A program made the translations under genes and the position numbers. Positions 26,743 through 30,087 of a stretch of 39,036 nt of DNA are shown here, in pieces. Origin of the DNA: an uncultured Eubacteriales bacterium (lineage in GTDB: Bacteria > Bacillota > Clostridia > Lachnospirales > Lachnospiraceae); contig ONED01000011.1 in assembly GCA_900316755.1 (NCBI GenBank), positions 1 through 39,036 of the forward strand, read 5' to 3'. Within the stretch, counting starts at the first letter, position 1. The number at the start of each line of letters is the position of its first letter. Below the pieces are notes generated by a model. The model was not told the DNA's origin and searched no databases. It was given only the letters and a program-made list of their open reading frames with translations.

Positions 26743-27714
26743 TTAACCACTACCACTTTGCCCCGCACGAAACTCTTTGGGAGACACTCCGTACCGTTCT
26801 TTAAATTTTCGATAAAAATAGCTGGAATTATCGTATCCCACCATCTGTATAATCTCCGATACCGGTATTTTGGTGTTGGTCAGCATATAGGCTGCCTGAT
26901 TCATCCGCTTTGTCTGGAGAAGTTCTTTATAGGTTTTCCCCGTCTTCTTTTTAATCTCCCGGCTCATCCAGTAGAGGTCATATCCCATCAGCTCCGAAAG
27001 CTCCGATAAGCTCCCGTCCTTATACTTTGTTTCTATGTAATTCAGGACACTGATTACGAATTCCTGATCTACCTGCTTCTCACCTGTCTCCATCTTATCC
27101 ATATAATTTAAAAGCTGCAGAATCAAAAGCCCCATTGTAATCTGATTGCTGCTGCGCTTATTCAGGGTATTGTGAAGGACCGACCATACCATATTTTCCA
27201 CCAGGTTCTGGATAGGCAGCACCTCGGCCACATGAAAATACAGGTAAGAGACCGCTTGGTTGTTCCTGCAAAGACTCCCGACCAGAAAATCCCGGAGCAG
27301 GTTGTCATCTGCACCAATCATTTCAAATGCGGTATCAAAAAACTGAGGAAGGATAATAAAATTAACCGCAATATCCTCTTCTCCTGCCGGCAGGATTTCC
27401 TGTACAGCATTCTGGTTCAGGAACAGCAAATCCCCTTCCTGAAGCACCACCCGGTTTCCGTCCACAATATGCACGGTAGAGCCTTTGCACATATAAATCA
27501 CTTCAATATAGTTGTGACGGTGTTTCGGAAAATGCACAAACCGAGTATGGGGACGCACCTGAATCAGTTTTCCTTTCTGAAGGAGCTTGTCACAGTCGAT
27601 GACCATCTCTTTTTTTTCGGTATAAATGGTTTTATTGATATCTTTCTGTCCGTTCAGAATCTTCTGTTCTTCATCGGTAATCACGGACAACTGTCTGATG
27701 ATTTCCTCATTCAT
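26743..27714 (-). CDS. AraC-family transcriptional regulator, probable rhamnose regulator
   Basis: The 323-residue protein has an N-terminal cupin domain (HTRFVHFPKHRHNYIEVIYM, then GDLLFLNQNA) and a C-terminal AraC double helix-turn-helix (about residues 220-318) with LSELSELMGYDLYWMSREIKKKTG and VGYDNSSYFYRKFKERYGVSP. It lies just upstream of rhaB-rhaA with an intervening terminator, so control of rhamnose genes is a reasonable guess. Its start overlaps the end of the ParA gene by 8 bp, which couples it to the preceding operon. That linkage to ParA is unusual for a sugar regulator. Confidence 0.88.
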   Translation of the reverse strand: MNEEIIRQLSVITDEEQKILNGQKDINKTIYTEKKEMVIDCDKLLQKGKLIQVRPHTRFVHFPKHRHNYIEVIYMCKGSTVHIVDGNRVVLQEGDLLFLNQNAVQEILPAGEEDIAVNFIILPQFFDTAFEMIGADDNLLRDFLVGSLCRNNQAVSYLYFHVAEVLPIQNLVENMVWSVLHNTLNKRSSNQITMGLLILQLLNYMDKMETGEKQVDQEFVISVLNYIETKYKDGSLSELSELMGYDLYWMSREIKKKTGKTYKELLQTKRMNQAAYMLTNTKIPVSEIIQMVGYDNSSYFYRKFKERYGVSPKEFRAGQSGSG

Positions 27715-28504
27715 TGGTATCCTGCTTTCGATTCACAATCTCCTCTGTGAGCGCCATGTATTCCTGCGCACTCCGACAGCTTTTGCGATAAGCCATAATC
27801 GGCATATTATTATCCTGGGACCATTCCACGCTGCTGTCCACGCGGATAAAGGTTTCAAACACGTTTACCGCTTCCAGTTCATGCAGAGAATCAATCGTCT
27901 GCTTAAAATAGTTCTTTCTGGTATCCACCTTGGTCACCACGATTCCAAGCACCTCCAAATCGGGAGCAATCTGCCTTACCTCCTCCAGAAATTCAAACAT
28001 ATTTCCAAGGCCGAAAAGTCCCCATGGAGTCGCTTCCACCGGAATCATCACGCAGTCCGATGCACACAGGATATTCATCACCCAGCCGCCCAGTGTCGGT
28101 GGGGCGTCAATTAAAATGTAGTCGTATTCTCCCGACTCCCGAATGCTGCTAAGACATCTCTTCAGGATAAATTCCCGCTGCCATTTGGTAAACAATTCAA
28201 ACTCAATAGAGCTCATCAAAGTAGACGACGGAATCATATCCAGATTTTCATAGGAGGTATGTACAATATAATCTTTCAAATCCTTCTGGTTCTTGATGGC
28301 ATAATAGAGGTTGTCCTCACTCTGTGCGAACCCAAGCACCTCATCCTCCGAGAAAAAAGAGAGCGATAGATTGAGCTGCATATCCCCGTCAATCAAAAGT
28401 ACCTTTTTCCCAAGCTGCGTCAAACCATATCCCACATTTGCACAGGTGGTTGACTTTCCGCTCCCGCCTTTATTGTTTGCAAAACAAATTACCTGTGTCT
28501 TCAT
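27707..28504 (-). CDS. ParA/Soj-family ATPase
   Basis: Deviant Walker ATPase of the partitioning/positioning family. The 265 residues begin with NNKGGSGKSTTCANVGYGL (deviant Walker A, residues 10-17), followed by LLIDGDMQLNLS (Walker A') and DYILIDAPPTLGG (Walker B). This is the MinD/ParA fold that forms ATP-bound dimers. No ParB gene is adjacent, so it is probably not the chromosomal segregation pair; a role in positioning a cargo is possible. It starts 1 bp after the stop of the sigma-like gene and overlaps the AraC gene, so the three are translated as a unit. The cargo is unknown. Confidence 0.9.
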   Translation of the reverse strand: MKTQVICFANNKGGSGKSTTCANVGYGLTQLGKKVLLIDGDMQLNLSLSFFSEDEVLGFAQSEDNLYYAIKNQKDLKDYIVHTSYENLDMIPSSTLMSSIEFELFTKWQREFILKRCLSSIRESGEYDYILIDAPPTLGGWVMNILCASDCVMIPVEATPWGLFGLGNMFEFLEEVRQIAPDLEVLGIVVTKVDTRKNYFKQTIDSLHELEAVNVFETFIRVDSSVEWSQDNNMPIMAYRKSCRSAQEYMALTEEIVNRKQDTNE

Positions 28505-28505
28505 C

Positions 28506-29294
28506 TTACGTTTCCTCCTCTTCTGATTCTGAATCTTCTCCTGCGAGTTTTAAAATGTCTTCAATCTCCTGTATCTCCATTCCCATATGGACAGCCAGTT
28601 CATCCATCGTGACCTTTCTGCCCAGCTCTTCCGTTAATTCCCGGATGCTGCGATCCAGCATTTCCACCTTTTCTACCATCTTCTGATCTTTGTGGTGCAG
28701 TTCCTTCTGCTCCTCCAAAAGCATCTGCATGCTTTGCCGAATCTGTGTCATGAGCAGCGAGTGAAATGTATCTGCGTCTGAATCTTTTCCTCCTGTAGTC
28801 ATCTCCATGCCCGCATCACCCAGCATCTCTACTCCCAGCATCAATCCGAGATTTCCTTCCTGAATCAAATCCCCCAGAAACACCTCCGGTATGTGCAGTT
28901 CTTTTGCAATCTCCACCACTTCTTTTAGATAAACCTCTGTAAGCCGGGCTTTCGCCCCACTCCCCTTTGCCGCAGCCTGCGCAAAAAGATTAGAAAGCTC
29001 TTCCTCATCCGCGGGTCTGATTGCTTCCAAATCACTTAAGTAGGCTTTTAAGTAGCCTCTCTCTTCCTCGGAAAACATTTCCTGTTCTTCCGCTTTGGAA
29101 TCCATTTTTAGATAGCCCTGTACCGCCACTTTTTGTGCTAAAAGATAGTCAAAGACCAGGGCAATCTGTTCTTCAGTCAAAGCATCCTCCGAAAAGTATG
29201 CTTTGACTTCCTCGGTCGTAATCCGGTTTCCCTGCTCCTTCGCTTTTTTTCGTAGTCCGTTTAGTTTTTCCAGAAATTCTGCTTTTCCGTCCAT
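28506..29294 (-). CDS. Truncated sigma-70-like protein lacking the promoter -35-binding region
   Basis: The 262-residue protein resembles parts of a primary sigma factor. Residues about 77-125 match region 1.2-2.1 (EEERGYLKAYLSDLEAI; AKARLTEVYLKEVVEIAKEL). DLIQEGNLGLM (142-152) matches region 2.2, which binds core RNA polymerase. The segment that should contain the aromatic -10-melting residues of regions 2.3-2.4 (about 160-195) is replaced by sequence without them, except a relic QIRQS. Residues 207-248 look like region 3 (TEELGRKVTMDELAVHMGM). It ends in an acidic tail with no region 4. ATG at 29294 has GGAGG 5 bp upstream; the GTG at 29306 overlaps it. The role is unknown. Confidence 0.75.
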   Translation of the reverse strand: MDGKAEFLEKLNGLRKKAKEQGNRITTEEVKAYFSEDALTEEQIALVFDYLLAQKVAVQGYLKMDSKAEEQEMFSEEERGYLKAYLSDLEAIRPADEEELSNLFAQAAAKGSGAKARLTEVYLKEVVEIAKELHIPEVFLGDLIQEGNLGLMLGVEMLGDAGMEMTTGGKDSDADTFHSLLMTQIRQSMQMLLEEQKELHHKDQKMVEKVEMLDRSIRELTEELGRKVTMDELAVHMGMEIQEIEDILKLAGEDSESEEEET

Positions 29295-29325
29295 ATCGCC
29301 CTCCACGTTTTCTCTTGTACCTCTA

Positions 29326-30087
29326 TTATGTCACGATTACGGTCGGATATCCAGCCCTTTTTAATCTTTGTTCCATAGCGGTCGCTTCATTTAAGGTTTC
29401 GAAATTCCCGACCCGCACCCGGTAATACCCGTCGCCCATCTCAATCCGCGCCGGAAAGTCCATTTCCAAAAGCTCCTCAAGAAGCGCCTGTGCATATCTC
29501 CGGTTCCGGTATGCACCTGTCTGCACGGAGTAGCGCACAGCTTCCTCCGGCGCCGGATGATTCAAAGTATCCAGAATCCCATCGGCAATCGCCTGCGCAA
29601 TATCATTAAAATTCGCATCAAACAGCCTGTTATCCACATCTGAATTCATGAAGCCGACCTCTACCAGCACTGCCGGCATTTTCGTTCTTCTCAGCACCAC
29701 TAAGTTCGGGCGCGCCTGCACACCTAAATTGACAAATCCAACCGTCTCCAGCTGCGCGTTGATGTTCTGCGCCATCTCATATTTAATGCCTTCTTTATTG
29801 TAAACAAGACTCTCCACACCGGAAACCACATTGTCCTGCGGAAACGAATTCCGGTGAATGGAAATAAAGAAATCCACTCCTGCCTCATTTGCTTCCATCG
29901 CTTTCTGATACGGGGATTCGTAAACATCCGTCGTTCTTGTATATTCTACATCAATTCCGTTGTTTTGTAAAATTTCTCCGACTGCAAGAGTTAATTTTAA
30001 TGTATCATCCTTCTCCTGTCTTCCAGTATATACTGCTCCCGGGTCACGGCCGCCATGACCGGCATCAAGCATAATTGAGTATGGCAT
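29326..30087 (-). CDS. N-acetylmuramoyl-L-alanine amidase with C-terminal SPOR domain, no signal peptide
   Basis: Predicted zinc peptidoglycan amidase. The catalytic domain (residues 1-175) has LDAGHGGRDPG (His ligand), Glu in KAMEANEAGVDFF, SIHRNSF (His) and VLVEVGFMNS (catalytic Glu), typical of Amidase_3. Residues about 185-253 form a SPOR domain (YSVQTGAYRNRRYAQ, VRVGNFETLNEA), which binds denuded glycan strands. There is no signal peptide or membrane helix at the N-terminus, so the enzyme may act on the mother cell wall from within, be released by lysis, or be exported by another route. First gene of the operon with the sigma-like, ParA and AraC genes; 31 bp separate it from the next. 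Confidence 0.88.
   Translation of the reverse strand: MPYSIMLDAGHGGRDPGAVYTGRQEKDDTLKLTLAVGEILQNNGIDVEYTRTTDVYESPYQKAMEANEAGVDFFISIHRNSFPQDNVVSGVESLVYNKEGIKYEMAQNINAQLETVGFVNLGVQARPNLVVLRRTKMPAVLVEVGFMNSDVDNRLFDANFNDIAQAIADGILDTLNHPAPEEAVRYSVQTGAYRNRRYAQALLEELLEMDFPARIEMGDGYYRVRVGNFETLNEATAMEQRLKRAGYPTVIVT

Follow-up and report, generated by a model that had tools for sequence, protein, structure and literature searches.

Can a protein descended from a housekeeping sigma factor keep its hold on RNA polymerase after giving up promoter reading, the defining task of sigma factors? The question is raised by a gene in a 39,036-nucleotide stretch (the window) of an uncultured Eubacteriales bacterium of the Lachnospiraceae (contig ONED01000011.1, assembly GCA_900316755.1). 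Its open reading frame (ORF, 28506-29294) runs on the minus strand from an ATG at 29294 to a stop codon at 28506 and encodes an acidic protein of 262 residues (isoelectric point 4.5). An initial annotation, made from the sequence alone, had described the product as a sigma-70 derivative that retains core binding without promoter recognition. Both the frame and the sigma-70 descent were borne out, the latter by Pfam regions above cut-off; a joint branch of homologs set against RpoD and selection among relatives speak against a chance frame. The same genome also has a normal RpoD (a 379-residue frame) and nine further region-2 sigma domains. Our tentatively favored reading is of a sigma mimic blind to promoters, which would sit on the clamp of core polymerase and compete with sigma-A.

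Sigma regions and residues kept and lost

Like RpoD/SigA, the protein has the region order 1.1-1.2-2-3, a sigma-2 fold in the predicted model and the DLIQEGN motif (residues 142-148), whereas its family lacks most promoter contacts, the 3.2 finger and region 4, and its regions 2.3-2.4 are acidic. The housekeeping character of regions 1.2-2.2 and of region 3, recognized initially, was confirmed; a fold unlike sigma domain 2, which had been named as evidence against the initial interpretation, was not what the model predicted. In Pfam, Sigma70_r1_1 scored 24.6 bits against a cut-off of 22.5 and Sigma70_r3 (PF04539) passed its cut-off (E 2.4e-7) over the first 44 of 78 model positions, while Sigma70_r2 gave a weak match (0.081). 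The nearest NCBIfam model was that of RpoD (NF006666; E 3.7e-17), at 62.7 bits far under its 572-bit cut-off. The region 1.1-like domain had not been mentioned before; its Pfam model (PF03979) matches 29 of 42 family members at E<=0.01.

The earlier statement that region 4 is missing also held. The Pfam scan of the protein returned neither region 4 nor a receiver domain, a region-4 search of the window contig gave no match, and a region-4 model built from 21 RpoD sequences produced only partial matches in the family (<=6.8 bits). Pfam did report Sigma70_r4 in 3 of 42 members; a rescan of ten members matched one of them (L117, residues 216-244), where the hit overlies region 3, and did not locate the other two. 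The C-terminus lies no more than 33 residues past position 503 in 86 of 87 members, the remaining one having a 69-residue His/Cys-rich tail. His-rich, partly Cys-rich C-terminal tails that look like metal-binding sequences occur in 10 scattered members of the 87 (e.g., L092, L061 and L094).

These counts come from a family assembled around the window copy. When the protein was compared with 298 genomes of its taxonomic family, matches were present in 297, many of them RpoD. In an order-level sample, at least 65 of 121 genomes of one family (f1) had a match in a frame of 235-308 residues (a hand count in which 5 matches span stop codons and an unclear 312-residue frame, G153, was left out); across 19 other families (173 genomes) no short-frame match was listed, and the matches that were listed lay in frames of at least 334 residues. 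Among the matches listed for a class-level sample of 118 genomes (5 from f1), all full-length short-frame ones were in f1, and partial matches occurred in two frames of 312-314 residues of other families (G610, E 8e-27; G535, E 2e-23); on this listing a wider spread of the gene was rejected. We fetched a subset of 80 of the listed short-frame places and seven loci of named records titled Lachnospiraceae bacterium, uncultured bacterium or uncultured Clostridia bacterium, titles from which f1 is taken to be the Lachnospiraceae. One of these 87 loci proved to be RpoD and was dropped, so that counts refer to 86 relatives plus the window copy; twenty additional loci were used for gene context and the selection test alone. 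The 87 homologous frames form one branch apart from 21 RpoD sequences, with a support of 100 in the Shimodaira-Hasegawa-like approximate likelihood ratio test.

The ratio of nonsynonymous to synonymous substitution rates (dN/dS) was 0.006-0.117 in 14 pairs of relatives with sufficient DNA words in common for a comparison; the window copy belongs to no such pair because its nearest relatives are only 47-49% identical to it. These ratios indicate that the gene is functional in its family. They contradict, for the family, the idea of a decaying, functionless duplicate, and some residues remain strictly conserved in members that are 25-48% identical to the window protein. Although the lost promoter contacts, the 5 of 65 listed matches that span stop codons and the 56 of 121 family genomes without a short-frame match among those listed would suit decay, we give it a negligible probability.

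Residues were compared in a joint alignment of the 87 members and 21 RpoD sequences. Escherichia coli numbering was anchored by placing DLIQEGN at 403-409 and is valid only after the non-conserved region; the positions listed are those that we take to be core-binding or promoter-contacting. At the core-binding positions, the RpoD residue is kept in 76 (L384), 86 (D403), 54 (Q406), 85 (E407), 85 (N409) and 3 (I413) of the 87 members. The window protein has L, D, Q, E, N and M at these six places, where RpoD has I at the last, and each of the 87 has a hydrophobic residue (V, I, L or M) at position 410. D77, E81, I84 and M87 are described as interface residues of sigma-32; with the offset fixed by equating H107 with W433, D77 and E81 correspond to positions 403 and 407, I84 to 410 and M87 to 413 (PMC10216364).

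Promoter positions gave the opposite picture, the RpoD residue being kept in 7 (N383), 0 (Y425), 4 (F427), 14 (Y430), 1 (W433), 0 (W434), 12 (Q437), 0 (T440), 2 (R441), 14 (R451), 1 (H455) and 22 (E458) members. Three of these twelve residues, F427, Q437 and E458, are retained by the window protein. Loss of the -10 aromatics had been claimed initially; it is seen at four places (Y425 to D, Y430 to L, W433 to T, W434 to Q), but F427 is kept. In 20,000 random draws from 96 RpoD-invariant positions, core retention as high as that observed arose in 0.07% and DNA retention as low in 0.19%. The mean net charge of positions 420-449 shifts from +3.7 in RpoD (range 2 to 4) to -5.2 in the family (-10 to 0) and is zero or negative in 87 of 87 members. 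The window protein has the clamp-binding residues of region 2.2 typical of group 1 sigma factors and lacks their tryptophan dyad, most of their -10 contacts, finger 3.2 and region 4. Retention of most core-binding residues together with loss of the promoter residues and region 4 is, at the sequence level, supported across the family.

Could new residues confer a -10-like specificity of their own, as in a divergent alternative sigma factor? The helix of regions 2.3-2.4 is kept in the predicted model, a tryptophan occurs somewhere in 425-441 in 8 of 87 members, and the window protein retains the three promoter residues named above. The uniformly non-positive charge of 420-449 and the absence of finger and region 4 speak against this possibility, as do the former W433 and W434 places, which vary among members without the linked protein described below (E, the commonest residue at each, in 16 of 58). 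We consider it very unlikely. The T4 late sigma factor gp55 is a small sigma-70-like factor without region 4 that still reads a -10-like element; small size, sigma-70 likeness and lack of region 4 are shared with the window family.

A possible role at core polymerase

According to the favored reading, a housekeeping sigma duplicate would have turned into a promoter-blind mimic. Like sigma-A, it would use region 2.2 of its domain 2 to dock on the beta' clamp helices of core RNA polymerase; we infer this binding from residue conservation and the predicted fold. With the sigma finger and region 4 gone and most promoter contacts of regions 2.3-2.4 and 3.0 exchanged, in many cases for acidic residues, the bound complex would be unable to locate promoters or open them. 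The DNA channel may be occupied by the region 1.1-like domain. The net effect would be that core polymerase is withheld or recycled in competition with sigma-A and, when the protein is abundant, that sigma-A transcription is lowered or alternative sigma factors are favored. Sigma-2 is described as contacting the beta' coiled coil by way of region 2.2, with region 1.1 mimicking DNA inside the channel (PMC4598750). SigN of Bacillus subtilis pBS32 is described as a core competitor able to depress SigA transcription; the proposed competition for core is shared with the favored reading, whereas SigN is a working sigma factor with its own promoters (PMC10601692).

A broader proposal, which we put forward as rather doubtful, is that one bacterial family has made a copy of its housekeeping sigma factor a dedicated regulator of core polymerase, in which the sigma site is blocked by a domain 2 with an acidic face together with region 1.1 as a plug and, in one clade, a 140-residue partner makes up a two-protein system. 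Such a regulator may do delta-like work, since the HARE-HTH domain of the RNA polymerase delta subunit was found in just 1 of 150 genomes of the family at E<=1e-5 (in a 284-residue frame); delta thus seems to be absent from these bacteria. Both sigma mimics and sigma competition have precedents; a primary-sigma paralog that is conserved and blind to promoters is, to our knowledge, a new variant, and no account of the family was recognized among the open-licence PMC papers listed. If docking is indeed kept while DNA reading is dropped, such a conserved paralog would offer a clear natural example of a sigma factor that serves to regulate polymerase, found in gut bacteria in which the control of transcription has received little study.

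Other origins and roles were also considered. A phage origin was rejected: among the best 80 of 387 listed viral loci, the family model outscored the RpoD model in none, and WW is retained in all 13 of these 80 that lack a region-4 match. PADLOC returned no match for the sigma-like protein. SpoIVA was found in 54 of the 67 genomes that carry the sigma-like gene and in 52 of the 83 without it (Fisher p 0.019, kinship not corrected), the 67 being a lower bound copied by hand from the listed matches (G099, for example, is missing). Since 13 genomes have the gene without SpoIVA, a strict spore gene was rejected.

Two clades and a linked 140-residue protein

A branch with a support of 100 divides 31 members from the 56 that include the window copy. 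Position 406 is G in 31 of 31 members of the smaller clade and Q in 54 of 56 of the window's clade. In the smaller clade, a common upstream gene, read by eye as a rhomboid protease, was found in 29 members, a protein of about 140 residues is encoded directly downstream in 29, and both are present in 27; farther downstream, 25 loci have a gene read by eye as an M16 peptidase, 21 one read as Era and 13 one read as RecO. The linked gene (for example L035:6781-7200, with 28 further loci) overlaps the sigma-like gene by a few bases in several loci. Its profile matched 15 of 150 genomes and adjoins the sigma-like gene in 14 of them. In the fifteenth (G028), the sigma-like match ends at residue 159 and the linked gene starts 386 bases into another contig, a separation that is likely an assembly break. 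The linked protein matched nothing in Pfam (for L035) or among PDB sequences, and no fold in its comparison reached E<0.001. Two weaker hits were set aside: its model (mean predicted local distance difference test score 68.1) had glyceraldehyde oxidoreductase and kin as best fold match (E 0.003), which was not trusted, and a weak PADLOC match to PDC-S01 (E 0.0013) was not used.

The clades also differ in regions 2.3-2.4. M189 and E190 are present in 31 of 31 members of the smaller clade, and the 29 members with the linked protein have K433 in 20, M434 in 16 and D437 in 25. The smaller clade thus has a putative partner and a changed interface, and the window's clade retains the housekeeping interface.

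These observations bear on the main rival, in which the sigma mimic binds something other than core polymerase: the former sigma surface would switch an anti-sigma-like regulator or the linked protein, in the manner of PhyR of Alphaproteobacteria. The sigma-like domain of PhyR is described as not working as a sigma factor itself; PhyR is ECF-like (extracytoplasmic function type), carries a receiver domain and binds NepR (PMC4598750). The window protein differs in deriving from a primary sigma factor, with RpoD as its nearest NCBIfam model, and in having no receiver domain in the Pfam scan. The new conserved 2.3-2.4 surface, the change of Q406 to G and the persistent linkage speak for a non-core partner, and this is the favored account for the clade with the 140-residue protein. 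As an explanation of the gene we regard it as possible though unlikely, given that the window genome has no match to the 140-residue family profile and that Q406 is kept throughout nearly all of the window's clade.

Might the protein instead be one half of a split sigma factor, binding core while a separate protein supplies the region 4 contacts? In SigO-RsoA of B. subtilis, the SigO part lacks region 4, and RsoA is a separate region-4 protein. The family does end before region 3.2/4, and the window genome has short frames with weak region-4 matches on other contigs (C10, 116 residues; C87, 61 residues; C89, 135 residues). None of these frames is on the window contig, where no co-encoded region-4 partner was found, and the linked protein of the other clade matched no Pfam, PDB or fold entry at the thresholds above. 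Unlike SigO-RsoA, the window family has also lost the -10 contacts, which are needed in the core-binding half. A split sigma factor is improbable. For the initial suggestion of a second subunit, the window contig yielded no region-4 match, but one clade does carry the linked protein.

Neighboring genes and layout of the locus

The locus is laid out in Table 1. A ten-residue insert of the sigma-like protein directly precedes the degenerate promoter-contact helix.

Table 1. Features of the sigma-like gene and its flanks in the window
Feature	Position	Strand	Basis and remarks
N-acetylmuramoyl-L-alanine amidase with SPOR domain, upstream neighbor	29326..30087	-	Pfam
Ribosome-binding site GGAGGG of the sigma-like gene, before its ATG	29299..29304	-	Read directly in sequence
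Putative promoter-blind sigma-A paralog, 262 residues	28506..29294	-	ORF, Pfam, tree
Region 1.1-like domain, residues 9-66	29097..29270	-	Pfam PF03979 (Sigma70_r1_1), E 2.5e-5
Regions 1.2-2.1, residues 77-133	28896..29066	-	Alignment; Y85 is Y in 83/86 relatives
DLIQEGN, putative clamp-binding motif of region 2.2, residues 142-148	28851..28871	-	Alignment; D403/E407/N409 equivalents kept in 86/85/85 of 87
Ten-residue insert, residues 161-170	28785..28814	-	Gap in 74 to 85 of 86 relatives, by column
Degenerate regions 2.3-2.4, residues 171-200	28695..28784	-	Helix in predicted model; most promoter contacts lost; net charge -5 (positions 420-449)
Region 3, residues 208-251, last conserved part	28542..28673	-	Pfam PF04539, E 2.4e-7; no 3.2 and no region 4 after it
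Acidic tail, residues 252-262	28509..28541	-	Alignment: not conserved; end codons carry ParA ribosome-binding site
ParA-like ATPase, downstream neighbor	27707..28504	-	Pfam; starts one base past sigma-like stop

The initial interpretation holds as to a sigma-70 derivative with clamp residues mostly kept and with promoter residues and region 4 lost, but a meaning of the acidic tail or of the ParA neighbor is not supported. The tail is present in the window protein; a functional element was rejected because the tail is not conserved and codes for the ParA ribosome-binding site (28518-28514), contained in the last codons GAA GAG GAG GAA ACG. ParA does adjoin the sigma-like gene, as had been stated for a common operon, yet the search of neighbors in other genomes showed that it is not a conserved one: window ParA matched no ORF of the 87 fetched loci (86 family, 1 RpoD), hence 0 of 86 other family loci, in flanks of up to 6 kb, some of them truncated where a contig stops. 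Of 149 other genomes, 16 carry close relatives of this ParA (63-79% identical), and no sigma-like neighbor was seen by eye in the loci around them. A ParA partnership was therefore rejected.

Amidase relatives are present in 16 of 87 loci and lie directly upstream in two other genomes of the genus read (L041 and L160). In the window (26743-28504), the ParA-like ATPase gene overlaps that of an AraC regulator, beside a kinase read as rhamnulokinase. An AraC-type regulator like this one follows ParA in four other genomes (L141, L142, L145 and L151, by eye), and a ParA-AraC-rhamnose block has presumably become a neighbor of the sigma-like gene in the window's lineage. After the ParA relatives in L143, L146, L147, L148, L150, L152, L155 and L156, the next ORF starts alike (for example GSIIRA, ESILRA or SSIQRV) and perhaps encodes a ParA partner.
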